The notes beneath the pieces are model-generated. The model did not search any database and was not told the origin of the DNA. It worked only from the letters and a program-made list of their open reading frames with translations. From NCBI RefSeq assembly GCF_032464895.1, contig NZ_JAWDIC010000002.1:62001-126000 (forward strand): DNA of 64,000 bases. Reading direction: 5' to 3'. A program made the translations under genes and the position numbers. Below are positions 25,709 to 47,499 of the stretch, piece by piece. How positions within the stretch are numbered: position 1 is the first letter of the stretch; each line of letters begins with the position of its first letter. Origin of the DNA: Phycicoccus sp. M110.8 (lineage in GTDB: Bacteria; Actinomycetota; Actinomycetes; Actinomycetales; Dermatophilaceae).

Positions 25709-26155
25709 ATGGATGCTGTTATGAGAACACCTTCTTCCTGGGCCTCCACGCCCGGGCGGCGGCGGATCATGCAAGCGAACCGCTCGCGCGATACCAAGCC
25801 CGAGCTTGCGGTGCGCAAGGTCCTGCACGCCGCGGGGTTCCGGTACCGCGTGTCATACCCGCCTGTAGCGCAGTTGCGGCGCCGGGCAGACATCGTTTTC
25901 ACGCGGCAACGCGTCGCGGTCTTCATCGACGGCTGCTTCTGGCATGGCTGCCCCCAACACGGCCGGCGCCAATTCAGTGTGAACGGTGACTATTGGGTCC
26001 CAAAGATCGCGGCCAATCATGCAAGAGACCGAGACACGGATCAGCGACTTAGGACTGCGGGATGGCTGGTTCTGCGCTTCTGGGAGCACCAGGACCCATT
26101 CGCGGTGGCAGAAGAGATTGCTGATGCCGTAGCAGCGCGCCTGCGGTCAATATGA
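25709..26155 (+). CDS. vsr: Vsr-type very-short-patch-repair endonuclease
   Basis: A 148-residue PD-(D/E)XK-fold endonuclease. Family marks are NRSRDTKPELAVRKVLHAAG at about 24-43, RRADIVF with the catalytic Asp near residue 61, the Zn-linked FIDGCFWHGCPQH at about 72-84, and the closing GWLVLRFWEH. Vsr nicks beside T:G mismatches made when 5-methylcytosine deaminates. Here a cytosine-5 methyltransferase lies in the facing operon, so the repair role is natural. In defence loci a Vsr-like enzyme might instead be the cutting effector. ATG 25721 is an equally good start. It stands alone and is convergent with the 1842-aa gene. Confidence 0.9.
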   Translation: MDAVMRTPSSWASTPGRRRIMQANRSRDTKPELAVRKVLHAAGFRYRVSYPPVAQLRRRADIVFTRQRVAVFIDGCFWHGCPQHGRRQFSVNGDYWVPKIAANHARDRDTDQRLRTAGWLVLRFWEHQDPFAVAEEIADAVAARLRSI

Positions 26156-26165
26156 CCCCCCCCCC
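26156..26165. repeat. C10 homopolymer directly after the vsr stop
   Basis: Ten consecutive C residues follow the TGA at once. Such a tract can vary in length but, lying outside the frame, would not change the protein. Confidence 0.7.
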
Positions 26166-26342
26166 GCTCAGGGATCATGGTTGAGATGACAGTTACTCGA
26201 CCGACGCCATCCCTTGGACTCTTCCTGTGATGCAAGATGTCTCCAGCGCCTCTAGGGAGACCCCTATCCGTGTGGGAGGGGCCTGGAGTCGGGGCCAAAT
26301 ACTACCATTAACGTAACGTCCAAGAACCCAATTCATTTCGCC

Positions 26343-29300
26343 CTACTGATCGTTCACTTTCAACTCGAAGTAGGGGGTGCCGCGCATGAACCGGGCGTCC
26401 ATTCCCAGCGTCTTAATCAGGGCTTGATGAACAGCTAGATTTGGCACTTTTGCCGCGATCTCAGGGGTGGCGCCGGCAAAGCCGAAGGACTTGAGGTCTG
26501 CAACAGCTATGTTGGGCACCTTATGCACGACCTTAGTCAGCAGAGTCTCACCGTAGTTTGTTTTGCCCACTTTGAAGTGCGAAACGTACTGCGATGCAAG
26601 GATGACCCCAACACCAAACTCCCTGCCCTGCAGGAGAAGTTGGGTGAGTACAGGGAACTCATGTGCCATTATGTTGGTCGCCTCGTCAACCAGCACAAAC
26701 GAGTTGAGTCGGCGCAATTGATTGGGCGCATCGCCTTCGAATGGCCACTTTCTTAGTCTCAACATGTGTTCGTAGTACTTATTAAGGAAGAGAGTGATCA
26801 AGGCCGTTTTCAGGTTGTCGTCGGACCCCAGATCGCTAACAGCCACGACGAGCACCTTGTCATGGAGCATCTCCTCAATCGTGACGAGCTCGTCCTCGTT
26901 CTCCGAGAATACTTCGTTCAGTACGAACCCGTTGAGCACCGCCGCCACCGAGTCGAAGGCGTTCTCCTCGAGATAAGCTTCAAGCACCTCTCCGAGCGTC
27001 GGTGCCAAGCCGCCCTTCCTGGCGAACAAGTCCTTGATGATCATCAACACCTTGCTCTTCTGCACAGGACCGACACCACCATAGATCTTCGTGATGACGT
27101 CAACGAATGCACCGCCTGCCTGCACGGCTTTCTGCGGCGTATACTCGCCGTCAATGGCCAAGACGTTCAAGGGGATGTGGAAGGGTCGCTGAAGCTCACC
27201 GCCGACGCTAGCGAGGAACTCCGCATCATGGTAGTCGCGCTTGTAGTCGAAAATCAGCATCGAGAGGGGCGTCGGTTGCTGTTCACCAGCACACTTTCTG
27301 AGTTGATAGACCACCGACTTCAAGAATTGGGTCTTGCCCGTCCCCAAATCCCCCACAACACCGACATTCATTTGGTTGAGTGCCGTGTTGCTTGGCCAAA
27401 AGTCGACGCCGCGCGTAGTCACACCATCAATCGTCCTGCCGATTTCAAACCGGACACCGTATCCCTGAATGCTCGGGCTTGGTTCGGCAAGGGCCGCATC
27501 GTCTGACGGCGGCGCGGTCTGGGCATCTGAGGACTCTTCGACGACGCCCTCCTTCGCGTGGGCTGCAGCGGTGATTGGGAACGAATCCCTGCGGTACTTT
27601 TCGGAGTCCTCAGATTCCACGCTTACTCGGTTAGAAAGTCCCGGGTGCGCTGGGGACGCACCGGCGAGCTCCGCCTTTTCGTGGGTATCGCGAGCGAGAA
27701 CCCACTCAACGAGCCGCTGCCAGTCTGGTCCCAACGACTCAGAGTCTTGGTGCACGAATGCGAAGGCGGCCTGTGTATTGCACAAAAGGGCCCCGGCAAG
27801 CTCGTTCTCCTCATTTCCAAGGGCTTCGAGCCCGAGCTCGATGGCGTGAGTCGAGCCGTCCGCCGTGACTGCCTGATGCCCGAAATAGCAGAGCAGCGAA
27901 CGCCCAAGCCGAACTTCAACTTCACCCGACAGTAGTTCGGCCAGCGCCGCACGCAGCAGCTGCGACCCGCTGGTCGGAGCGGGCCGCAAGCGCATGGCGG
28001 CCTCCACCATTGTGGCAAAGCCGTGACGCCAAAGCGCGCCGTATTCCGGTTCCGAACCGGCCAGCTGTGCATAGGACTCCACTACCTGGCCTAGTAGCTC
28101 GGAGGTCGATTCAAGCTGACGCAAGGCCTCGATGACTGGGACCGCACTCTTCGAAAGGGTCTCCGAAGGATTGGCTGACTCGAGTCCGTAGCACTTAATC
28201 TCAACCGGCACGAGGGTTATCCCCATCGGCTGAACCGCGACCAGCAGCAAATCCGCACGCCGCAGCTGGTTCGTCGCGGCCGATTCGTTTGCCAGACCGC
28301 GTAGAAACTCATCGCATGCGTCGATCGGCAGCACCAGCAGCTGGCTGCCTTCCACAACCGCCTTCTCCAAGAGTTGCAGCGTCAGGTAGAAGCCAACGGC
28401 ACCAGCCGCATGTGTCCCTCCTTGCGCCATAAGCGATGAGAGGCCAATGCCTCTAGTGCCAAGGGTCGTCATCACCTCGTCGAGCTTGCTGTCAAGATTC
28501 TCAGTTGACCCCGACGCCTTCATCAAATGGGCCCTAATCTGATTCTTCACAGCTGCCGGCAACCTCACGACACTCACGAATGGCCGGGCGTCAAGCTGAG
28601 GTGTAGCTCGCTTCTCAAGAAAGGGCGGCCGCCAGTCCCACAGCATCTGGCCAGATCCGTCCGCAGCGAGCATGTCTGCGAGAGCGTTAGCGCCGACCAA
28701 GGACTCACCGGTTACAGTCCAATCCGCCGAGTCATTCACTAGTGCCGCTTGGAAGAGCTCTGCACTAATTTGAACGCCCTGATCCGCACGTTCCACTTTG
28801 GCAAGAGCACGGATGAACGCGCTACTGTCTGGATCCAATTCGACAACAGGGAACTCGCGAGCCACGTAGCCAACTCCGGCCTGAGCTGGCGTCGAGAAGC
28901 GACGCAGCGGGATTGTCGACACAAGTCCGGCCCCCGAGACGGCGGTCGGCGACACCTCAACCTTCACTCCAGCGTCCTGAAGAAATCGTAAGTTGGCCTG
29001 AGGCCCTCCAGTTGGCTGATGCTTGTATCGAGACCAACGAACTGGCCGTTCGGGGCTTACCCCTAGTTTCCGCTCGAGATCAGCAAGCGGCGCCTCTCCG
29101 AGGCGGTTCATCGAGTCAAAGACCCGGACGCCTCCGCGCAGGATTGAATTCCCAGCGGGAGCTGCGATGGCCTCGATAACCGCCTGATCAATTTCACCGA
29201 GCCGGGGAGTAGCGGTCGATGACGCTAAATCGATGGACAATGTAGATACTTGTGGGTTCATTCGGTGGAAGGTTCGCAGGGCCGAGCGAACCGCGTCCGC

Positions 29301-31871
29301 GTTCAGGCCTGTTACGGATGTTCCCGGTGCAGGCAGTGCGCCAATCTGAGCCGGACCCTCCAGCGCCTCGTGGCCCGCCACGCTAGCCGACACGAGCATC
29401 GACCAGCCGAGGAAAAGTTGACCCACGCCGGCGTCTGTCGGAACAGCGAGCAACCGCCCATTGTGACTGTCTGCCTGTGGCCCCACGGCCGGAAAGTTCC
29501 ACGCCTCGAGGACTCCGGCCAGTCTTTCGGCCGATTCAGTCCGGCGCAGCGCGTCCTCGGCCGCAGCCAGCCACGCCATCCGCAGCGGATGCAAAGGGCT
29601 GAGGAGCACAGCCCGAGCCTTCTTGGTTCCGTCAGTCTTGTACACGCTGACGGACCATGGGAAGGAGGCCCAAAACACATCCTGCGGAGAGCCTGATGCC
29701 GCTCTATCTATAAGGCAGGCATATGCATCTAGGTACTCATCCAGAGCACTCGATCCGTGCGCCCAGGACCAAGAAGTCCGTGAAGGCCAAACGAAGTCGA
29801 CGCGGTCCTCCTGGTCGCCGGACCGCCGGAGCCGTGTGCCAAGGTCAAGCTCGACGATCGCGTTCCGGAACCGGGCCGCTTGCTCAGACTCTCGCAAGTC
29901 AGCACTGACGTGATAGCCGATGTGAGAACTGACCAGTCCTTGGATTCCTTCCGGAACCAAGACTGCCCCTTCGGCGCCGGCCACCAGAGTGTCAGGGGTG
30001 TCGGCGTGATCCTCGAACATGACTATGTGCCCGAGCGCGTCGAGCGTCGCCTTCTCGTTGATGTGTCGCGCGAGATATGTCTCGACACGTCCGCGGAAGG
30101 AGCGTTGCACTTCAACATCGGGCTCTCCCGCTGAAACGACGCCATCGCGAGCGGCGGCTAGCAAGGGCGACAGGAACTCGTCAGTGCTCGCACCCGATTT
30201 CCAACGGACCAGCAGTCGACCGACCGTCAACTCGTCCTCACTGGTCGTCACAAGGTCGGGATCCGACAGGTGTACGACGACCTCCGCCTGATCCCGACGG
30301 AACTCCGAGACGGAGACTGCGGCCGATGGGACGTGGCCCCACGTCACTATTCGCACCACAGTGCCCACTGAACTCTCGACGGGTACAACGACGCCCGAGT
30401 CCTCGATCGCCGCTGGAATCGTTTCGTAGCCTCGGTACACCCCCGGTTTGAAGGCTTCGCCCCCCGAGTTCTTGCCCTCGAATGTCCAGACACCGACGGT
30501 CCCCGCAACCACTGGGTAGAGGGCGCTGCTCACAGCCGAACCGACGAACGCCGCCAGGGGGTCCGTCGCTGGCAGTGCGGTGGACAACGTGATCGGTCTC
30601 GCTGGCATCTTGGCCATTCCTGGGCGCGGGAGGACCACCGATCCCCTGCCAACGAGCTCGCCGCCTTCCACGGCTAAAGAGCCCCGCCATACCGCTTTCG
30701 CGGCGCCAGACCCACCCACGCTCAGGCTCAGCTGAGAACCAGCGACTGCCTCCGGTTGAGGGATGTGTGACGTAGGCAGCAGGATGCGGAGAGGCTCAGA
30801 AACCAGCTCGCTCGTGTTACCGTCCCATCGAAAGAGGACGATCTGCGGGGATCCTTCCCCAGCGATGCCCATCGAGATGTCACCATCCGCATAGACCCTT
30901 AGCGCAGAGTCCATTCCCTGTTGTGGCGCGAAGAACTCGCCTTCTGTTAACGAGCTGAAGGCCGACACCCAAATGCCTTCGTCGCCTTGCGGGGTGCCCC
31001 AAGCTAGAAGGACATTATCTTTAGCGGCCACGACCTGACCGAACTTCCCGAACGAGAGCTTCTCCAGCTCGTGCGGAAGGCCCTCTTCGCCGAGTGGGCG
31101 CGACGGGTGGTGACGGAGTCGCTTCAGCGTTAAAAGGATGGCCTCCGTCGTCGACCAGAATTCCATAAGGGCCTCGTCGACTTTCCGACCCACACCATAA
31201 GCATTCCCAGTAGTGGGCAGAGGGAGCCCAAACGACGCGTACGTCATCCGCGCCAACCGCGTGTCGGCATTTGCCGCGAGGTCGTTGTCGTCCCGAGTGA
31301 TGGCACGGGCGAGGACGTCAAGGCCGGACCCAAGGTGACGCAGCCAGAAGACGTTCCAAGCGTCGCCGCCTTGCGCGATGCGCTCATAGGCTTCAGCGAG
31401 AATACGGAACACATTTCCTAGTCGTTCACTGGCCGAGACTGCATCGACGAAATTGAGGTCGACGTTAGAGCGTTCCAGAATCACGTCAATCGCGTCTTCG
31501 GCAAGGATGGTGAGGTGTCTCGCGCGGACATCACCGACCTCGCCCGGGTAGTCGCTCTCGATCGCTGCCCCGAAGGAACTAGAAAACGACGCGGGGATCG
31601 AATGGGCGCCGCAAACGACAGCCAGTCGATCGTCCCGCCGATACTGAATAGACCGGCCCATCCCCACAATGGGACAATCCTTTGCGGAAAGTTCTTCCGT
31701 TAGATCGTCACTGACTAAAATCGCGAAGGGAACATCGCTCGGCCGCATGGAATTCGCATGGCGAACTATTTCGCGAGCAAGCTCAGGCACCTGATCGGGG
31801 AGATAGAGCGCCCGGAGCCCGTCCTCAGCGACTAGTTGCCGAGCCAGAGCGGCAGCAAGGGTTTTCAACAT
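26343..31871 (-). CDS. giant HerA/FtsK-like ATPase with PD-(D/E)XK-like motif (DptH-like)
   Basis: An 1842-residue protein starting at MLKTLAAALARQLVAEDGL behind AAAGGAG. The first 1100 residues match nothing I recognise. Around residues 1195-1230, ACDEFLRGL, RRADLLLVAV and VPVEIKCYG look like the D...ExK core of a PD-(D/E)XK nuclease. The C-terminal motor has Walker A GDLGTGKTQ near 1509, Walker B VLVDEATNI near 1724 and the sensor-like ILASQYVSHF, as in HerA/FtsK translocases. Length, position as last gene and architecture resemble DptH of phosphorothioate-dependent restriction. It starts 7 bases after the preceding gene. It is likely the motor or effector of the island's system. Low-GC codon use supports acquisition. 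Confidence 0.85.
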   Translation of the reverse strand: MLKTLAAALARQLVAEDGLRALYLPDQVPELAREIVRHANSMRPSDVPFAILVSDDLTEELSAKDCPIVGMGRSIQYRRDDRLAVVCGAHSIPASFSSSFGAAIESDYPGEVGDVRARHLTILAEDAIDVILERSNVDLNFVDAVSASERLGNVFRILAEAYERIAQGGDAWNVFWLRHLGSGLDVLARAITRDDNDLAANADTRLARMTYASFGLPLPTTGNAYGVGRKVDEALMEFWSTTEAILLTLKRLRHHPSRPLGEEGLPHELEKLSFGKFGQVVAAKDNVLLAWGTPQGDEGIWVSAFSSLTEGEFFAPQQGMDSALRVYADGDISMGIAGEGSPQIVLFRWDGNTSELVSEPLRILLPTSHIPQPEAVAGSQLSLSVGGSGAAKAVWRGSLAVEGGELVGRGSVVLPRPGMAKMPARPITLSTALPATDPLAAFVGSAVSSALYPVVAGTVGVWTFEGKNSGGEAFKPGVYRGYETIPAAIEDSGVVVPVESSVGTVVRIVTWGHVPSAAVSVSEFRRDQAEVVVHLSDPDLVTTSEDELTVGRLLVRWKSGASTDEFLSPLLAAARDGVVSAGEPDVEVQRSFRGRVETYLARHINEKATLDALGHIVMFEDHADTPDTLVAGAEGAVLVPEGIQGLVSSHIGYHVSADLRESEQAARFRNAIVELDLGTRLRRSGDQEDRVDFVWPSRTSWSWAHGSSALDEYLDAYACLIDRAASGSPQDVFWASFPWSVSVYKTDGTKKARAVLLSPLHPLRMAWLAAAEDALRRTESAERLAGVLEAWNFPAVGPQADSHNGRLLAVPTDAGVGQLFLGWSMLVSASVAGHEALEGPAQIGALPAPGTSVTGLNADAVRSALRTFHRMNPQVSTLSIDLASSTATPRLGEIDQAVIEAIAAPAGNSILRGGVRVFDSMNRLGEAPLADLERKLGVSPERPVRWSRYKHQPTGGPQANLRFLQDAGVKVEVSPTAVSGAGLVSTIPLRRFSTPAQAGVGYVAREFPVVELDPDSSAFIRALAKVERADQGVQISAELFQAALVNDSADWTVTGESLVGANALADMLAADGSGQMLWDWRPPFLEKRATPQLDARPFVSVVRLPAAVKNQIRAHLMKASGSTENLDSKLDEVMTTLGTRGIGLSSLMAQGGTHAAGAVGFYLTLQLLEKAVVEGSQLLVLPIDACDEFLRGLANESAATNQLRRADLLLVAVQPMGITLVPVEIKCYGLESANPSETLSKSAVPVIEALRQLESTSELLGQVVESYAQLAGSEPEYGALWRHGFATMVEAAMRLRPAPTSGSQLLRAALAELLSGEVEVRLGRSLLCYFGHQAVTADGSTHAIELGLEALGNEENELAGALLCNTQAAFAFVHQDSESLGPDWQRLVEWVLARDTHEKAELAGASPAHPGLSNRVSVESEDSEKYRRDSFPITAAAHAKEGVVEESSDAQTAPPSDDAALAEPSPSIQGYGVRFEIGRTIDGVTTRGVDFWPSNTALNQMNVGVVGDLGTGKTQFLKSVVYQLRKCAGEQQPTPLSMLIFDYKRDYHDAEFLASVGGELQRPFHIPLNVLAIDGEYTPQKAVQAGGAFVDVITKIYGGVGPVQKSKVLMIIKDLFARKGGLAPTLGEVLEAYLEENAFDSVAAVLNGFVLNEVFSENEDELVTIEEMLHDKVLVVAVSDLGSDDNLKTALITLFLNKYYEHMLRLRKWPFEGDAPNQLRRLNSFVLVDEATNIMAHEFPVLTQLLLQGREFGVGVILASQYVSHFKVGKTNYGETLLTKVVHKVPNIAVADLKSFGFAGATPEIAAKVPNLAVHQALIKTLGMDARFMRGTPYFELKVNDQ

Positions 31872-31878
31872 TTCTCCT

Positions 31879-33285
31879 TTAGAAGGCTGCCTCGATTGCG
31901 ACGGCCTGATCCGCATCCGCACTTCCACGTGCCACACCGGCTTGTTCGAGCCTCATGACCAGATCTCCCAGCTCCGGACGGAGACCAAGCTCACGCAGGT
32001 CCTTAACCAACTGGCCCACATCAGTTGAGGTACCAGGGCCAGAACAACTGAGGCTCGCCACGGCAGCAATCCACTCGACGCCGGGGTCAGGCACAGAGAA
32101 TCTTCTTCCATTCTTTCGAAGAAATCCGTAATGATCCGCATCCGGCCCAGTGCCCTCGCGCGTCAACAGCGCGTAGTTGATTGCTTCCCACAAGTTCTCA
32201 TTGCTTCCCGAAGGCGCCGACAGAGCATCCGTGAGCTCCGCTCGAAAGTGCTCATCGAGCCGCATTGCGGCTAGCTCCTCCCCTGCGTCAGCGAATGGTC
32301 CCTCCGCTTCTGCCCATTCGCGTATTCGATCGCGAACGTTGTTGCTTCGCAAAACTCGCCACTTGGTCGACGATGCAACGTCGCGCACGCTTATCCCAGA
32401 CGTTTGCTCTTTCCATGGGAGGAGGGGGCCTATCGACTTCAGCAACTCTCCCGGCCCCTCGGTGCCACCTCCAATCACGGATCTTGAGACGCGCTCGTAC
32501 CAAGCAACCTCCCATAAATAGCCCAAACCAAAAGCGAGGCGCAGGACTGTGTTGGCCCAATCTACCCAGACCCGGGCCGGGAGCGCCTCGACCCACGCAG
32601 GGCTGCAAAGCTTGATCCACACACGGTGAAACCAGGAGAAGGGAGTTCCGGCAATATGGTCATTCACCCCCATCGCCCATTCACCTAATTTTCTGTTGGG
32701 ACCAGCACGAAAGAACGTCGAGGACGCCGCGGTGTCCACCGCACGAATGACTCGATCAACAGCGCGTCTATGCTCAGCGGCGCGAACCCAGTGGTCGGCC
32801 GCGGTGAGCTGGCCCCCCGAAGAGAATGTGGATCCTACAAGGAAGAATCGCTCAAGGATCCCACCCAGATCCGGCGGGTTACGGGTTCCAGCTAGCCCGC
32901 GAGGATTTTGAGCAAGAGCGAGAGACGGCGTCATAGGAATGGCAGCACGAACCTTTCCATCCTTTGCACGAACCCCAGCAATTGCGCCTGCCACAGCTCG
33001 CGACAAGATGATTTGGTCGACATCCGACTCGAAACCTGCTGATGCTAGCTCTTCACCGAATCTGGCGAGACCTTCACCCTGTGGCCGCGTCTGATGGAAC
33101 ACCAGAGCAGGCGTTACCCGCTTGGATTCGGCACTGTTCGACTGGTATGCCACTGCCAGAACCTGCTTAGCTTCGTGAACCACTCCGTAGTCAACGTCGT
33201 AGGCACGCGCGGCAAGAGCTGTTATGAAACCTTCCGGAACGCTGACGTACTGAGGGCGCGGGAAGTCAAGGTGAACGGACTTCAT
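31879..33285 (-). CDS. defence-operon protein of unknown fold (DptG-like position)
   Basis: A 468-residue soluble protein whose ATG overlaps the preceding stop (TAATG). I recognise no catalytic motif. It has a Trp-rich central part (WFHRVWIKLCSPAWVEAL, WVDWANTVLRLAFGLGYLWE) and an acidic helical C-terminus. In size and in place between a P-loop ATPase and a giant HerA-like ATPase it corresponds to DptG, a scaffold-like subunit of unknown activity. The correspondence is by context; sequence homology cannot be judged here. Codon use is lower in GC than the host, as in its neighbours. Confidence 0.8.
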   Translation of the reverse strand: MKSVHLDFPRPQYVSVPEGFITALAARAYDVDYGVVHEAKQVLAVAYQSNSAESKRVTPALVFHQTRPQGEGLARFGEELASAGFESDVDQIILSRAVAGAIAGVRAKDGKVRAAIPMTPSLALAQNPRGLAGTRNPPDLGGILERFFLVGSTFSSGGQLTAADHWVRAAEHRRAVDRVIRAVDTAASSTFFRAGPNRKLGEWAMGVNDHIAGTPFSWFHRVWIKLCSPAWVEALPARVWVDWANTVLRLAFGLGYLWEVAWYERVSRSVIGGGTEGPGELLKSIGPLLPWKEQTSGISVRDVASSTKWRVLRSNNVRDRIREWAEAEGPFADAGEELAAMRLDEHFRAELTDALSAPSGSNENLWEAINYALLTREGTGPDADHYGFLRKNGRRFSVPDPGVEWIAAVASLSCSGPGTSTDVGQLVKDLRELGLRPELGDLVMRLEQAGVARGSADADQAVAIEAAF

Positions 33286-35210
33286 TACGAGGTCTCCACG
33301 TAGAGGTCGGTAAGGGCTTGACCAGTAATCACCCTGAACTCGCTGTTTTCGACTCGTTCGGGAATCAATCGCTTCGCTCGGAACCGCTCTACCCGAGGAC
33401 TGACACGAGCGGCCTGCTCCGTTACGCCAAGTCGCTGATTGGCGCACGACTGAACTGTGCGGATCAACGCGAAGTCAAGTTCAATCTCGCCCACAAGAAT
33501 CCCTAGCTCACGCATATTGACGGTAACAGAATCCCCCCGGAACACGAGTTCTAGTTGAACGTCATCTTCTCCCTGTAAAACCAATTGCGGTTCGGCAGAT
33601 GGCCCAGTCAGGGGCACGGTTCGGCTACTGAACAGCGGCAAGAGATAGCCAGACTGGGGATCATTCGGGTCACGGGACGGCCTGAGAAGGGTTTTGAGTT
33701 GAGTTTTCACCGCCGAGGGCAGCGAGGACCGGGTCTCGAGCCAAGCTGAGACCTCCTGCCGAAACGCAGACACTCCGTTGGCCACCGCGTACAGCCGACT
33801 GAGATAGTCGCCGTACCAGGCAACGATCTCGCGTCTCGTCTTGTCGTCGACACCCTCCGGCTGGGTCACTGCCACAAACGCGTCGTCAAGGGCCCGATCG
33901 AAGTCTGTGACGGCTTCGCGGAATGGGTCATGGTCGGGAATTGATTCGAGGATGGTTTTCAGGGGGGAGTACGCGGTGATGAGCCCGGAAAACGCGGCGA
34001 GCACCGGGGAGGCCCACCCGAAATGTGGGTCATCCACCGATCCCGGAACAGCATCGAGAACAGGGTCAACCAGTGCTGTGATCCGCAGCACCGGGTCGGT
34101 GGCACGGACCTCAGAAGGAAGATCCGCCCCGACGATGGCCTGACTTGCGCGTAGGCGTGCGCGATGGCGTAGCTCAGCGAAGCGCGCGGCGGGGTTTAGC
34201 TCTTCGTCAATGAGCGGGAACATAGTGGCTAATGCCTGTGGATCGGTCATCTGAGGTAGGTCTCCGGCCATTGCGCGCATGATGGCCCCCCAAACTTCGC
34301 GGAAGGTCATACGCGCTCCAGCAACCGCCTCGGCCGAGCGCAGCAGCGTCAGAAAACCTCGTTGCACCGCGACCGATTGGAAACTGGCGATATTTGCTGC
34401 GAGCGGGTCACCCGCTGGCGCAGGAGGTTCGTCCGCGTGGGAGAGGTGATGCGCAACGAGGCTCAGCAATGAGCCGGCAGGTGTAGAGAGCGTGTCAAGC
34501 GTGGCGCGTTGCTTGAGACGCTTAACTCTGTACGGCTGCGCGCACAACGCCTCGTCGACCTGTGGGCGCACCTCAAACAGCGAACAGTGATCGACGTACA
34601 CGGCTACAAACTCGATGTCGCGATCTCCAAGGTGCAGCTCAGCGCGTGAGACTAGCGGACCCTGCATTCTGCTCGTGAGCTGAAAACCCGTCGCAACGCC
34701 ATCAACGTCGGCTAGCCAACGAACGATGCTGGCCCCGACGGTCTCGGTTCCAAGGGCGTGCGCTTCTTCCACAAGGATGCCCCGGTTCACACATCCGAGG
34801 AAGTAGTCACGGGCGCCCACCGCCGAATCCACATCGTCAGCCAGAGGGTGGCGGTCATTCGCCCCGCGAATGGAAGCGTCGTTGACCACTACGAGGCGGG
34901 ACTGACCAGCCCGATAGACGTACTTCCGTTGCGCCAGTCCGGTGTCTTCGGCGTCATCTTCTTCGAGGTCCGCGGTCATGTGGGCAAGAGCGTGCGACTT
35001 ACCACCGCCCGGACCGCCAACGAGGAACACCAGCCTCTGGGGGCCTCCGCGATCGAGTCCTTCGCGGAGCCAGTCGCAGGCTTCGCGAACACCAGGGGCT
35101 GGCGCAACAGTGAATGCGTCAGCATCATTCATGTTGGGATCTACCGCAACCGAGCGACCACCGGTCGCCTTGCCCCAGATCGGGCCGAACGCGCCCTCCA
35201 GGTCGACCAT
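33285..35210 (-). CDS. P-loop ATPase of the defence operon (DptF-like)
   Basis: A 641-residue AAA-type NTPase. Walker A is GGPGGGKS at residues 65-72, after a hydrophobic strand (RLVFLV). Acidic strands RLVVVNDAS (105-113) and GILVEEAH (144-151) could supply Walker B or sensor residues. The C-terminal 200 residues are beta-rich and may bind DNA or a partner. The length and its place directly upstream of the G- and H-like genes recall DptF. It starts 121 bases after the methyltransferase stop and is coupled to the next gene by a TAATG overlap. It probably senses or powers restriction together with the 1842-aa protein. Confidence 0.85.
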   Translation of the reverse strand: MVDLEGAFGPIWGKATGGRSVAVDPNMNDADAFTVAPAPGVREACDWLREGLDRGGPQRLVFLVGGPGGGKSHALAHMTADLEEDDAEDTGLAQRKYVYRAGQSRLVVVNDASIRGANDRHPLADDVDSAVGARDYFLGCVNRGILVEEAHALGTETVGASIVRWLADVDGVATGFQLTSRMQGPLVSRAELHLGDRDIEFVAVYVDHCSLFEVRPQVDEALCAQPYRVKRLKQRATLDTLSTPAGSLLSLVAHHLSHADEPPAPAGDPLAANIASFQSVAVQRGFLTLLRSAEAVAGARMTFREVWGAIMRAMAGDLPQMTDPQALATMFPLIDEELNPAARFAELRHRARLRASQAIVGADLPSEVRATDPVLRITALVDPVLDAVPGSVDDPHFGWASPVLAAFSGLITAYSPLKTILESIPDHDPFREAVTDFDRALDDAFVAVTQPEGVDDKTRREIVAWYGDYLSRLYAVANGVSAFRQEVSAWLETRSSLPSAVKTQLKTLLRPSRDPNDPQSGYLLPLFSSRTVPLTGPSAEPQLVLQGEDDVQLELVFRGDSVTVNMRELGILVGEIELDFALIRTVQSCANQRLGVTEQAARVSPRVERFRAKRLIPERVENSEFRVITGQALTDLYVETS

Positions 35211-35331
35211 CAGCGCTCCGCTCCCTCATCCTCAGCCAGCGACGAGCACAGCGTGTGCCCACCCAATGACAGTTCTACCGGAGATTCGAAGGGAGGGCGG
35301 GCAAACCGGACCAAGTGGCTCGACAGGGTGT

Positions 35332-36594
35332 CTACAGGTCAAGGATTTCAATCAGGTGCTTCCCCACAGCCATGGCCAGCTCAACGGGAACGGCGTTGCC
35401 GATCTGGGTGTACTTCGGAAGTTCTCTCGCCCAATCACCTATTGACGGATCGCCTGCACGCCGCCTACCCCCAGTCGTCCTCTTGCCAGCGAATTGATAC
35501 CAATCCGGAAAGCCCTGCAGTCGGGCCATTTCTCGCACGGTCGGCGTGCGTGGCTGCTCGTAGTGGATGTAGTCGTCCGGAAGCGACGTCGCTGTGATTT
35601 TCGGACCATTAGGCCCCCACACCCTAGGGATCACCCTCTGATTGAACTTCTTCGTTCGAAGCTCCTCAGGCAGGTGCTCGTGACCGTGGTCGATTACGTG
35701 CTGGAAGCGTGCCATTACGTGATCGGCGTGACGTGAATACTGCTGCTCTCGGAGCACGGCACCGGCCCGAAGCACAGTCCCGTCGGACAGGGTCCTCATC
35801 CGTTCTTGGTACTCCGTTTCTGCATCCCGTAGGTACTCGGTGGTCTCCCAGCGCGATTTCCATTGAGGGTCGACTAGGTCACTGAGAATGTCTACGGGGT
35901 CAGGTGGCTTCACTCCAGTGGGACGCGGCAGGAATCCATCAGCGACCAAATCGTCACCAGTCGAGAGTGCGGGATTTAGGTCACTGCGAATCCCCACCAA
36001 AAGAACGCGAGGGCGGTTCTGGGGCACGCCGTAGTCCTGAGCAAAGACCAGAGCGGACCGAATCTCATAACCCACTACTCGACCGTTATGGATGAACGTG
36101 ATCGAACGGAATGCCTTCTGGACATCGCGCCAGATCTCGCCTTTCTCCCCTTCAGGAAGCCACTTTGCACTGAGTAACCCGCGAACATTTTCAAATACAA
36201 AAGCCCTCGGCCTGATAGCCTGGATGAAAGTGGCCATTTCACGGTAAAGATGATTGCTGGGGATCTCGGTCTTGGTGACTCCGAAAGTCCTTCGATGTCC
36301 GATCCCACTGAACCCTTGGCATGGGGGTCCGCCAGTTACAAGCGCGATCTCACCATGCTCGTCCCGAAGGCTATCCGCCAACGCTGAAAGCTGACCAGCG
36401 TTTCGAGTGACATCCAAGATATCGTTGGAGTGTCGATCTTTCCGGTCTATGAGCCGGCCACGGTGGTTTAGAAGGTAGGTGCTCAAAGCATCCGGGTGTA
36501 GCTCATTGACATAGACCGTCTCGAATCCGGCCTGCTCGAGCCCCCGACCAAAGCCGCCGCAGCCTGCGAACAGGTCGATAACTGCCCTACTCAC
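35332..36594 (-). CDS. DNA (cytosine-5-)-methyltransferase
   Basis: A 420-residue C5 methyltransferase that transfers methyl from SAM to a specific cytosine. The motifs in order are: I, DLFAGCGGF (7-15); IV, GGPPCQGFS (88-96, catalytic Cys92); VI, ENVRG (135-139); VIII, QNRPRVLLVG. A target-recognition region follows, then IX (REMARLQGFP) and X (YTQIGNAVPVELA). The start is GTG behind GAAAGGAAATC. It is the first gene of the minus-strand operon and would mark self DNA. The target site cannot be read from the sequence. The facing vsr gene fits 5-methylcytosine chemistry. Confidence 0.95.
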   Translation of the reverse strand: MSRAVIDLFAGCGGFGRGLEQAGFETVYVNELHPDALSTYLLNHRGRLIDRKDRHSNDILDVTRNAGQLSALADSLRDEHGEIALVTGGPPCQGFSGIGHRRTFGVTKTEIPSNHLYREMATFIQAIRPRAFVFENVRGLLSAKWLPEGEKGEIWRDVQKAFRSITFIHNGRVVGYEIRSALVFAQDYGVPQNRPRVLLVGIRSDLNPALSTGDDLVADGFLPRPTGVKPPDPVDILSDLVDPQWKSRWETTEYLRDAETEYQERMRTLSDGTVLRAGAVLREQQYSRHADHVMARFQHVIDHGHEHLPEELRTKKFNQRVIPRVWGPNGPKITATSLPDDYIHYEQPRTPTVREMARLQGFPDWYQFAGKRTTGGRRRAGDPSIGDWARELPKYTQIGNAVPVELAMAVGKHLIEILDL

Positions 36595-36770
36595 GATTTC
36601 CTTTCAGCGCGGATCCAGAGGCAAGAACGAGCTCGTGAACGTATGGCCGTCTATTGAACTGGATTTTGTCACTGAACAATGTCCCGACCACAATAAACAC
36701 CCATCGTAACGCGAAGGACGAAGGCGTTTTTGTAGAGCATCCATCCGCCCTCCCTTTCCGATGCGGCTGT

Positions 36771-36801
36771 TGGGCCCGGAGCGAAGATCGCTCCGGGCCC
36801 A
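36771..36801 (-). terminator. nrdJ terminator at right edge of the island
   Basis: A perfect stem of about 14 bp (GGGCCCGGAGCGA) with a 3-base loop, ending 18 bases after the nrdJ stop. It separates nrdJ from the island. Confidence 0.75.
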
Positions 36802-36818
36802 CCCTTTGACTGGCTAGG

Positions 36819-39746
36819 TCAGCTGCAGCCGCTGGTGCTGCCGCAGCCCTCGCAGACGTAGCAGGAGCCAGCCGGGCGCATCTTCGTGCCGCAGGTCATG
36901 CAGATCGGGGCATCGGCGGCCTTGCCCTGGAACTTCTCCAGGAGCTCGGCGGACGAGTGGACCTCGACCGAGACCTCGCGGGCCGAGGCAGCGCCGGCGC
37001 CGCTCTTCACCGCGTCGGCGGAGAGCGTCTTGCCCTCGACCTTGGCGTCGTGCTTCGGCTCGGCCTTGGTGACCGGCGTCGACTGCGACAGGGTCTCGAA
37101 CTCGGCCTCGGCCTCGTCCTCGTCGTCCGCGGCGGCCTCGAGCTCGTACGAGCCGGTCTCGAGCTGGTGCGCGCGCTCCTCGGCCGTGTGGATCCCCATG
37201 AACGAGCGGGTCTCGAAGTCGAGGTAGTCCAGTGCCAGCCGGCGGAACACGTAGTCCATGAGGCTCTGTGCCATCCGCACGTCCGGGTCGTCGGTCATGC
37301 CGGCCGGCTCGAACCGCAGGTTGGTGAACTTCTCGACGAAGGTCTCCAGCGGCACGCCGTACTGCAGGCCCACCGACACCGCGATCGAGAAGGCGTCCAT
37401 CACGCCGGCCAGGGTCGAGCCCTGCTTGCCGAACTTGAGGAACAGCTCACCGAGCTCGCCGTTCTCGTACGTCCCGGCGGTGAGGTAGCCCTCGGCCCCG
37501 CCGACCGCGAACGAGGTGGTCTGCGACTGGCGACGCTTGGGCAGCCGGCGCCGGACGGGCCGGTACTCGACGACCTTCTCCACGACCGGGGCGGCAGCCT
37601 CGGCGGCCTTGTCAGCGGCCTTGTCCTTGGCAGCCGAGCCACCGTCGGACAGCGGCTGGCCGACCTTGCAGTTGTCGCGGTAGACCGCGATCGCCTTGAG
37701 GCCGAGCTTCCAGCCCTGCAGGTGCACGTCCTCGATCTGCTCGACCGTGGCGTCCTCGGGCAGGTTGACCGTCTTGCTGATCGCGCCGGACAGGAACGGC
37801 TGGACCGCCGCCATCATTCGCACGTGGCCCATCGGGCTGATCGCGCGGGCGCCCATCGCGGTGTCGAACACCTCGTAGTGCTCCGGCTTGAGGCCGGGGG
37901 CGTCGATGACGTGACCCTTGTCGGCGATGTACTCGACGATCGCCTCGATGGTCTCCTCGGTGTACCCGAGCTTCTTCAGCGCGCGCGGGATGGTGAGGTT
38001 GACGATCTGCATCGACCCGCCACCGACGAGCTTCTTGAACTTCACCAGCGAGAAGTCGGGCTCGATGCCGGTGGTGTCGCAGTCCATCATGAAGCCGATG
38101 GTCCCGGTCGGGGCCAGCACCGACGCCTGGGCGTTGCGGTAGCCGTTCTTCTCACCGAGCTTGACGACGTCGTCCCACGCCTTGGTGGCGGCCTGGTGGA
38201 TGCCCTTGTCCATCACGTCGAGGGTGCGGATCGCGTCGTTGGCGGCCTGGTGCTTGCGCATCACGCGCTTGTGGGCGTCCGCGTTGCGGGCGTACCCGGC
38301 ATACGGACCCACCACGGCGGCGATCTCGGCGGAGCGCTTGTAGGCGGCACCGGTGAGCAGCGAGGTGATCGCGGCGGCGAGCGCACGGCCACCGTCGGAG
38401 TCGTACCCGTGGCCGGTCGCCATGAGCAGCGCGCCGAGGTTGGCGTAGCCGATGCCGAGCTGGCGGTAGTCGACCGTGGTCTTGCCGATCGCCTCGGTCG
38501 GGAAGTCGGCGAAGCAGATCGAGATGTCCATCGCGGTGATGACGAGCTCGGCGACCTTCTGGAAGGTCGCGGCGTCGAACGTGTCGTCGTCCTTGAGGAA
38601 CTTCAGCAGGTTCAGCGACGCCAGGTTGCACGAGCTGTTGTCGAGCGACATGTACTCCGAGCACGGGTTGGACGCGGTGATGCGGCCGGTCTCGGGGTTG
38701 GTGTGCCAGTCGTTGATCGTGTCGTCGTACTGCAGGCCCGGGTCGGCGCACTCCCACGCGGCCTTGGCGATCTTGGTGAACAGCTCGCGGGCGTCGACCT
38801 CCTCGATGACCTCACCGGTCTGGCGGGCGCGCAGCCCGAAGGTCGTGCCCTCCTCGACCGCGCGCATGAACTCGTCGCTGACGCGGACCGAGTTGTTGGC
38901 GTTCTGGTACTGGACGGAGGTGATGTCCTTGCCGCCGAGGTCCATGTCGAAGCCGGCGTCGCGCAGCGCGCGGATCTTGTCCTCCTCGCGCGCCTTGGTC
39001 TCGACGAACTCCTCGATGTCGGGGTGGTCGACGTCGAGCACGACCATCTTGGCCGCGCGACGGGTCGCGCCACCGGACTTGATCGTCCCCGCGGACGCGT
39101 CGGCGCCACGCATGAAGGAGACCGGGCCGGAGGCGGTGCCACCGGAGGAGAGCAGCTCCTTGGAGGAACGGATGCGGGAGAGGTTGAGGCCGGCGCCGGA
39201 GCCGCCCTGGAAGATCTTCCCCTCCTCCTTGTACCAGTTGAGGATCGAGTCCATCGAGTCGTCGACGGCGAGGATGAAGCAGGCACTGACCTGCTGGGGG
39301 CTCTTGGTGCCGACGTTGAACCAGACCGGGGAGTTGAAGCTGAACACCTGGTGCAGCAGGGCGTAGGTCAGCTCGTGCTCGAAGAGCTCCGCGTCGTCGG
39401 CGGTCGAGAAGTAGCCGTGGTCCTTGCCGGCCTTGACGTACGTGAGCACGACGCGGTCGATGAGCTGCTTGAGGCTCTGCTCACGCTGCGGGGTGCCGAC
39501 GGCGCCACGGAAGTACTTGGTGGTGACGATGGTGGAGGCGTTGACCGACCAGAAGTCGGGGAACTCGACACCGCGCTGCTCGAAGATGACCTCGCCGGTC
39601 TTCCAGTTCTGCTGGACGACGTCACGCTTCTCCCAGGTGACCTCGTCGTACGGGTGCACACCGGGGGTGGTGTAGATCCGCTCGACCTTCACTCCCCTGG
39701 AGGAGTTCTTGCGCGCACCTGCACGTGCGCCTGCCGTTTCGGTCAT
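36819..39746 (-). CDS. nrdJ: vitamin B12-dependent class II ribonucleotide reductase
   Basis: A 975-residue enzyme that reduces ribonucleotides with adenosylcobalamin as radical source, independent of oxygen. The ten-stranded barrel has the active-site cysteine segments FNSPVWFNVGTKSPQQVSAC, the loop GGSGAGLNLSRIRSS, NPCSEYMSLDNSSCNLASLN, and the tail motif APTGTIGFMMDCDTTGIEPD. The C-terminus ends in two CxxC pairs (CMTCGT, CEGCG), a zinc-ribbon-like tail that takes part in re-reduction. An acidic Ala/Glu-rich linker near residues 870-920 is variable. It follows nrdR by 101 bases and is likely controlled by the NrdR boxes upstream. Confidence 0.97.
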   Translation of the reverse strand: MTETAGARAGARKNSSRGVKVERIYTTPGVHPYDEVTWEKRDVVQQNWKTGEVIFEQRGVEFPDFWSVNASTIVTTKYFRGAVGTPQREQSLKQLIDRVVLTYVKAGKDHGYFSTADDAELFEHELTYALLHQVFSFNSPVWFNVGTKSPQQVSACFILAVDDSMDSILNWYKEEGKIFQGGSGAGLNLSRIRSSKELLSSGGTASGPVSFMRGADASAGTIKSGGATRRAAKMVVLDVDHPDIEEFVETKAREEDKIRALRDAGFDMDLGGKDITSVQYQNANNSVRVSDEFMRAVEEGTTFGLRARQTGEVIEEVDARELFTKIAKAAWECADPGLQYDDTINDWHTNPETGRITASNPCSEYMSLDNSSCNLASLNLLKFLKDDDTFDAATFQKVAELVITAMDISICFADFPTEAIGKTTVDYRQLGIGYANLGALLMATGHGYDSDGGRALAAAITSLLTGAAYKRSAEIAAVVGPYAGYARNADAHKRVMRKHQAANDAIRTLDVMDKGIHQAATKAWDDVVKLGEKNGYRNAQASVLAPTGTIGFMMDCDTTGIEPDFSLVKFKKLVGGGSMQIVNLTIPRALKKLGYTEETIEAIVEYIADKGHVIDAPGLKPEHYEVFDTAMGARAISPMGHVRMMAAVQPFLSGAISKTVNLPEDATVEQIEDVHLQGWKLGLKAIAVYRDNCKVGQPLSDGGSAAKDKAADKAAEAAAPVVEKVVEYRPVRRRLPKRRQSQTTSFAVGGAEGYLTAGTYENGELGELFLKFGKQGSTLAGVMDAFSIAVSVGLQYGVPLETFVEKFTNLRFEPAGMTDDPDVRMAQSLMDYVFRRLALDYLDFETRSFMGIHTAEERAHQLETGSYELEAAADDEDEAEAEFETLSQSTPVTKAEPKHDAKVEGKTLSADAVKSGAGAASAREVSVEVHSSAELLEKFQGKAADAPICMTCGTKMRPAGSCYVCEGCGSTSGCS

Positions 39747-47403: not shown

Positions 47404-47499
47404 TGGCGGAGGTGGACGGGAATCGAACCCGCCAGACCGAGATGCTCGGTCTCACCGGTTTTGAAGACCGGGGGGACCACCAGGAACCCTGACACCTCC
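47404..47499 (-). tRNA. selC: tRNA-Sec (anticodon TCA)
   Basis: A 96-base tRNA including an encoded G73-CCA. The acceptor begins GGAGGTGT and closes CCACCTCC. The anticodon arm is CCGGTCTTCAAAACCGG with TCA in the loop. A long variable arm (GAGACCGAGCATCTCGGTCT) and the T-arm GCGGGTTCGATTCCCGT follow, all features of tRNA-Sec. It is followed directly by selB. Confidence 0.96.

Follow-up and report, generated by a model that had tools for sequence, protein, structure and literature searches.

Methylation-linked FGH effectors are already known: the methylation-associated defence system (MADS), reportedly described by Maestri et al. in 2024, couples methylation to an FGH triad. Among phosphorothioate-linked systems, passages of PMC8092258 describe SspFGH of Vibrio anguillarum, a relative studied by experiment, as damaging DNA that lacks its mark, as needing all three of its genes, and as being toxic when the modification genes are missing. 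Here we report on a 64,000-nucleotide stretch of the Phycicoccus sp. M110.8 genome (the window), which carries a block of five genes encoding a C5-cytosine DNA methyltransferase (C5 MTase; M), three proteins designated F, G and H, and a Vsr endonuclease (V). Judging from the sequence, we consider it likely that this block is a 5-methylcytosine (5mC)-guarded branch of the DndFGH/SspFGH/Mad678 effector family, in which M would mark self DNA and FGH would spare the DNA so marked. The grounds for this reading are the linkage of the genes, the homology of F and H to known effector subunits, their intact catalytic motifs and the lack of DndC and SspD. Corresponding gene sets occur in numerous bacteria that are not related to one another. 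The relatives of the window FGH are linked to a sulfur mark or, it seems, to another type of methylation; it is the C5-MTase-coupled form that is the addition here.

The proposed self-marking enzyme, M (positions 35332..36594 of the window, minus strand, 420 aa), belongs to the C5 family (PF00145, 5.5e-54; TIGR00675, 9e-49) and has both the GGPPCQGF and the FENV motifs. The DruM and DrmMII models of Druantia and DISARM also match M, and both systems were dropped as candidates because C5-MTase models of many kinds match M alike and the other window genes match neither system. Vsr (25709..26155, plus strand, with an alternative ATG at 25721) is convergent on H. It was identified by TIGR00632 (4.9e-39, above cut-off) and PF03852 (3.4e-21), and is the sole PF03852 match in its own genome. 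A Vsr motif pattern of our own proved over-strict (16 of 50 matched) and was not used as evidence.

F (33285..35210, minus strand, 641 aa) is a DndF/SspF-like P-loop protein for which the family libraries returned SspF at an E value of 0.048, AAA and kinase models below cut-off, and nothing else. Profile comparison with hhalign was more informative, aligning F with SspF over 494 columns (probability 98.4, E 5.5e-15) and with DptF (probability 92.8, E 4e-7). Its best matches in the PDB are adenylate-kinase P-loops (E 0.002). The window protein has the Walker A sequence GGPGGGKS, the motif VNDAS, and CVNRG in the place of Walker B. Across 75 rows of the F family, the strict Walker A pattern (a GGPGxGK loop) is found in 68 and hNxGxL in 74, together with a DA[ST] motif. 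The DptF alignment displays this same set of Walker A, DA[ST] and Walker B N, and the same combination, with N for the Walker B D, is given for DndF by Rakesh et al. in passages of PMC10853773. These comparisons indicate that F is a remote relative of SspF and DptF, and that it is closer to SspF.

H (26343..31871, minus strand) is 1842 aa long from its ATG, with in-frame starts also present further upstream. Its last 330-380 residues match the PADLOC DndH model at 6.6e-58, and the mad8 model also matches this HerA part. By hhalign, H aligns with DptH over 710 columns (E 1e-52) and with SspH over 1024 columns (E 2.4e-31), and a four-sequence H profile matches the DptH structure 7es4 at 4e-66. 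The restriction endonuclease (REase) domain of PD-(D/E)XK type has D1206, E1223 and K1225 as its predicted active residues (numbered on a 1841-aa translation). The resulting layout, an REase followed by a C-terminal HerA/FtsK translocase, fits that of the DndFGH/SspFGH superfamily. The pattern RxD...PxExK was found in all 75 H proteins compared and the HerA Walker A in 74 of them. In that superfamily the region upstream in H comprises an inactive SWI2/SNF2 domain, a helix-turn-helix, beta-sandwiches, a target-recognition domain and an inactive methyltransferase; in a structural model of H residues 575-1475 (predicted local distance difference test score, pLDDT, 80.3) we observed weak matches to methyltransferase folds, with a best E value of 0.026. 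A Foldseek match with a probability of 0.99 covers 119 columns at E 0.027, and the match to DUF4297-HerA is weaker still. Taken together, the alignments argue that H is a relative of DptH and SspH with a HerA domain of the DndH type. HerA likeness alone was rejected as evidence, as HerA-like proteins of conjugative Vibrio plasmids match too. Two such plasmids (loci L106 and L107) carry HerA-like proteins of ~1000 aa, one of them annotated as a UvrD-helicase, beside conjugation genes; in a HerA tree their domains fall together with those of some DndH proteins.

G (31879..33285, minus strand, 468 aa) is the middle subunit, with a winged-helix-like C-terminal region and a proposed role in DNA contact. 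It has no family match in Pfam, PADLOC or NCBIfam. Its comparison with SspG gave a probability of 65 (E 6e-5) with only the C-terminal ~90 residues aligned, which is about the level of the yardstick comparison of DptG with SspG (probability 75, E 2.5e-5); DptG itself gave 2.7 and a negative control 0.1. An AlphaFold2 model of G (pLDDT 90.8) has no PDB fold match at E 0.001. Thus, of the triple winged helix expected of a DndG or SspG, the C-terminal region alone aligns, weakly, and with no significant fold match. The initial annotation had likened F, G and H to DptFGH on architecture. Profiles bear out the homology of F to DptF/SspF and of H to DptH/SspH, leave G as a weak case, and refine the likeness, with F nearer SspF than DptF and the HerA of H being DndH-type. 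The NCBIfam models for DptF, DptG and DptH (TIGR03238, TIGR03236 and TIGR03237) have no match among the window's five proteins at E values up to 1, and they do match Massilia proteins. When the five window proteins were run against PADLOC, clear scores were obtained for M, for Vsr and, within H, for the HerA region, and for nothing else, and loci of this type are therefore probably under-annotated.

Single-sequence searches turned up few relatives: G found its own genome only among 394 genomes of the class, F and G found nothing among plasmids, and H found nothing in genome_contigs. A G profile run over the class again matched the own genome alone (1 of 296), indicating that few organisms near the window's host have the system. 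Relatives were reached through plasmid tblastn matches of H and then by alignment-based scans. The tblastn search revealed a Rhizobium leguminosarum plasmid (CP050082) with M-F-G-H-Vsr in that order, where M stops 3 bp short of F and each frame from F to Vsr overlaps the next. The same five-gene set is present in Shinella oryzae and Sinorhizobium fredii, and Pseudoalteromonas has F-G-H-M with H split and no Vsr match. The Sinorhizobium fredii GR64 plasmid is represented by two records (L004 and L009), one with an integrase and IstB before a shortened H and the other with the set intact. Of 238 candidate stretches in genome_contigs, 82 were confirmed by a scan with the H alignment and 80 kept; in viral_contigs 1 of 113 was confirmed, giving 81 loci from 80 genomes and one viral contig. 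Their open reading frames (ORFs) were sorted by models seeded on the window and four plasmid loci; a 164-aa gene of L003 was rejected as a Vsr seed, being the split-off N-terminus of H.

F, G and H are all present in 71 of the 81 loci (in L030 as pieces), and a C5 MTase lies in the fetched stretch of every one of these 71. It is within 500 bp of the core in 67 loci and further away in L011, L018, L023 and L044. Vsr was found in 47 of the 71, with no match in the other 24. Because the loci were picked through H alone, the linkage of M and Vsr is not built into the sample. In 75 rows compared for placement, M is upstream on the same strand in 56, downstream reversed in 13, downstream on the same strand in 5 and upstream reversed in 1. 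As controls we used 18 stretches (367 kb), comprising 9 DptF-bearing loci (the full dpt trio being present in 7), 3 HerA loci of Vibrio plasmids and the nrdJ regions of 6 relatives; these yielded no C5-MTase or Vsr match, the count for the DptF-bearing loci being 0 of 9. The neighbourhood comparison thus leaves standing the linkage of the methyltransferase to the other three genes that the initial annotation had proposed. Of the five-gene set that it described, M accompanies F-G-H in all 71 loci and Vsr is optional.

Ten incomplete loci (L019, L031, L036, L040, L062, L076, L078, L079, L084 and L089) fall outside the 71. Among them, L019 lies on a short contig and retains H with M, L031 has G and H, L036 has H and Vsr, and in L062, L076, L078 and L084 H is broken or cut. 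L030, L035 and L049 were also omitted from alignments A4 and A5, and L030 from the 75-row comparison; alignment A9 consists of 28 hand-picked H proteins. The loci L034 (Solimonas variicoloris) and L035 (Bordetella hinzii) are near-identical copies (H 99.3%, M 100%), reflecting either recent transfer or contamination. One IMG/VR contig (L090) holds the full gene set.

We also searched for the genes of phosphorothioation. At E 1e-10, neither DndC nor SspD was matched in the genome to which the window belongs. In a set of 48 hosts, made up of this genome and 47 hosts of the 71 loci, DndC (TIGR03183) was not found in 47, with one match below cut-off in the host of L066, and SspD was not found in 47, with one match in the host of L033; the positive controls were detected in both searches. 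The host of L021 is outside the DndC set, where a plasmid control was used, and control G533 is in the SspD set. Of the sspBCD partners, the search covered SspD, present in 1 of 48 hosts; SspB and SspC were not searched. Models of dptF, dptG, dndC and dndD, each built on one or two sequences, matched none of the 81 loci. The lack of phosphorothioation genes noted in the initial annotation therefore extends from the window to DndC and SspD in the whole genome, and to dndC and dndD at the related loci.

Complex formation, self/non-self logic, DNA cleavage and the role of Vsr are matters that we infer from a model patterned by analogy on SspFGH. M would methylate cytosines at its chromosomal sites. 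F, G and H would assemble into a complex, as is thought for DndFGH and SspFGH, with F binding nucleotide and gating the complex and with G and the upstream part of H touching the DNA. The HerA motor would travel along the DNA, and the PD-(D/E)XK domain of H would nick or cut DNA without the 5mC mark. Vsr would mend the T:G mismatches that arise from deamination of 5mC, presumably making the mark affordable to the cell. The initial annotation had proposed a restriction machine that uses 5mC as the self mark; gene linkage and the homology of F and H support that proposal, and the 5mC mark itself we infer. As a correction to it, Vsr is an optional component, more likely of repair than of restriction.

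Several observations weigh against this reading, and three of them concern the methyltransferase gene itself. F, G and H are co-inherited, a point in favour of the reading, their pairwise distances correlating closely with one another (r 0.986-0.992, 75 rows); those of M correlate with them at an r of about 0.73 and so are looser. The H proteins of L054 and L070 are 91% identical and their M proteins 34%, and nowhere along F, G or H does identity drop locally by more than 0.07. Such a swap of MTase family without change in FGH is not what would be expected of a strict sequence-matched restriction-modification (R-M) pair, unless the MTases share a target. The MTase of L018, a locus kept among the 71, lies 7.9 kb away. 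Next come loci with no MTase in reach. In L040, H is full-length and no F, G or M was found. Two Bryobacterales loci, L079 and L089, have no C5-MTase match in 12.9 and 15.1 kb, respectively, both on short contigs of metagenome-assembled genomes. Their HerA belongs to the window's clade, a deep F model matches their F weakly, and a G-sized gene is unmatched; they are outside the 71 because the models do not reach F and G as divergent as theirs. F of L079 ends at the contig edge, and in L089 F is SspF-like and fused to DruA, and G meets SspG at 0.0029. These two loci argue against the view that every member of the wider branch needs an MTase linked to it. On the supporting side, F, G and H of Arenimonas L030 are broken into pieces and M and V are whole, an asymmetry that would follow if FGH were harmful to a cell without M; sequencing error could be an alternative explanation of the breaks. 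Finally, the kinship of G to SspG and DptG is suggestive and not secure.

We therefore weighed other explanations of the same genes. FGH may be a type IV-like or sensing system that attacks foreign or wrong methylation, or is triggered by a phage signal, with M in an accessory or counter-selection role. This would accommodate both the swapping of MTase families under an unchanged FGH and the absence of a C5-MTase match from the fetched stretches of L079 and L089, and Rakesh et al. propose, in passages of PMC10853773, that DndFGH is a standalone system that senses nucleotides and molecules of the invader. That all 71 loci have a C5 MTase is, however, hard to explain if the mark is unneeded, and according to passages of PMC8092258 the non-toxicity of SspFGH requires the modification genes; we regard this alternative as unlikely. 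More improbable still is the notion of an ordinary orphan pair, in which MTase and Vsr sit beside FGH by chance. C5 MTase and Vsr are indeed common neighbours, and M is downstream or on the opposite strand in 19 of 75 rows. Yet chance hardly accounts for linkage in 71 of 71 loci set against 0 of 18 controls, nor does it sit well with L005, in which M stops 3 bp ahead of F and the frames overlap at each junction (F-G, G-H and H-Vsr). When M was exchanged (in L054, L028 and L080), moreover, the replacement was again a C5 MTase.

The exchanges also bear on Vsr, which could be a second restriction effector, a nickase acting with FGH in place of repair, an idea compatible with 5mC guarding by M and FGH. 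Vsr remains with FGH in L028 and L080 (it was not found in L054); L028 and L051 are 72% identical in V, 73% in H and 34% in M, and V tracks H (r 0.77) more than M (r 0.68). Nevertheless, Vsr has no match in 24 of the 71 loci and is truncated or altered in L033 and L042, and repair is the usual role of a Vsr next to a C5 MTase. An effector role for Vsr thus seems improbable to us. Under 5mC guarding by M, the exchanges may have a further implication. L028 (2856-3008) retains a decayed 51-aa MTase remnant between the new MTase and F, and the MTases of L051 and L034 share 53-57% identity with it; in L054 and L080 the sequence upstream of F showed no remnant of this kind. The window M clusters with the MTases of L014, L020, L038 and L054, whose H proteins are just 22-34% identical to the window H. 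Since C5 MTases of different clusters, with different target-recognition regions, interchange, FGH may sense whether 5mC is present at all and not a fixed motif, for instance during translocation. We put forward only tentatively, as an idea that could well be wrong, that FGH is a plug-in effector taking chemically different self marks (phosphorothioate, MADS-type methylation or 5mC) and here not tuned to one sequence.

The genomic setting is that of an island. F and G share one base and H begins 7 bp past G, in keeping with the tight spacing or overlap seen in the initial annotation, and a recount of ORFs and GC content reproduced its five ORFs, their order, the convergent Vsr and the lower-GC block. 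The GC fraction is 0.551-0.632 across eleven 1-kb windows from 26001 to 37000 and 0.655-0.791 in the other 53. The nrdJ side is common to six same-genus relatives from about 36771-36819 onward, and the island is not in the 15-kb stretches fetched from these relatives. Among the repeats listed (20 of 35 direct families, 25 of 49 inverted pairs), element ends were not recognisable. As part of the 5mC-guard reading, we think it probable that the five-gene block is a horizontally acquired, R-M-like defence system. About 10 kb from the island there is a tRNA-SeC gene with anticodon TCA (47404-47499, minus strand); the host may use selenocysteine.

How the block compares with known systems can now be set out. 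A type II R-M system with Vsr likewise combines C5 MTase and Vsr, whereas the proposed effector here is FGH, and family searches found no stand-alone restriction enzyme among the five window genes. With DndFGH/DptFGH the block shares gene order, sizes, a DndH-type HerA and the F motif set; it differs in that window-type loci have no dnd matches and the DptF-bearing loci have neither C5 MTase nor Vsr. Among the literature matches listed, titles and abstract openings held no system of C5 MTase, FGH and Vsr, subscription papers and supplements being outside this scope. The main text of PMC10853773 does not mention Vsr, and its passages listed (12 of 17) tie cytosine methylases to CxC-DndE systems.

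SspFGH has the same F-G-H order, and the window F and H are homologous to SspF and SspH. In contrast, the window has a C5 MTase for sspBCD and a HerA in another clade; the PADLOC SspF model scores the window F at just 0.048, and SspG gives no score for the window G. A HerA tree unites the H proteins of the window's branch in a single clade (100/99), within which L079 and L089 fall. A scan of 349 genomes of one phylum with the SspG model matched 7 genomes, 5 of them weakly. Three of the loci have Ssp modification genes (SspB, SspC and SspD in L133, SspC and SspA in L134, an SspC-like gene in L135). L136 has SspF, a mad7-like G, a mad2-type MTase and a mad5-type specificity subunit, and then H, a MADS-like variant in that the modification genes lie between G and H. 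L138 and L139 have mad3 and mad5, upstream of F in L139, whose F gene carries mad6. No C5 MTase or Vsr was matched in six of the seven loci, L136, L138 and L139 included. The seventh, L137, has an SspFGH-type triad followed by a C5 MTase, Vsr and an HNH gene, and so resembles the window in that C5 MTase and Vsr adjoin FGH; it differs in that its F, G and H match PADLOC SspF, SspG and SspH. The HerA of L137 groups with those of L133 and L134 (100/99), L137 and others being flagged as long branches whose place is unsure. Given this grouping with Ssp loci, the coupling of 5mC to FGH may have had two independent origins.

MADS shares with the window block the combination of methylation with an FGH triad, and two of its models reach FGH proteins, mad7 matching DptG and mad8 the HerA region of H. 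It differs in having, for the C5 MTase, specificity subunits of the mad5 kind, joined in L136 by a mad2-type MTase, and in having more genes; among the window genes, F and G match no mad model, H matches mad8 alone, and M has no mad2 among the best 25 of 61 families listed. To judge from these families, the MADS-type mark would be adenine methylation. The block would thus bring 5mC into the set of marks with which the FGH effector family is coupled, and would tie DndFGH, SspFGH and the MADS components Mad6-8 together as a single interchangeable machine, whose discrimination of self from non-self becomes testable with an ordinary, mappable base mark rather than phosphorothioate.

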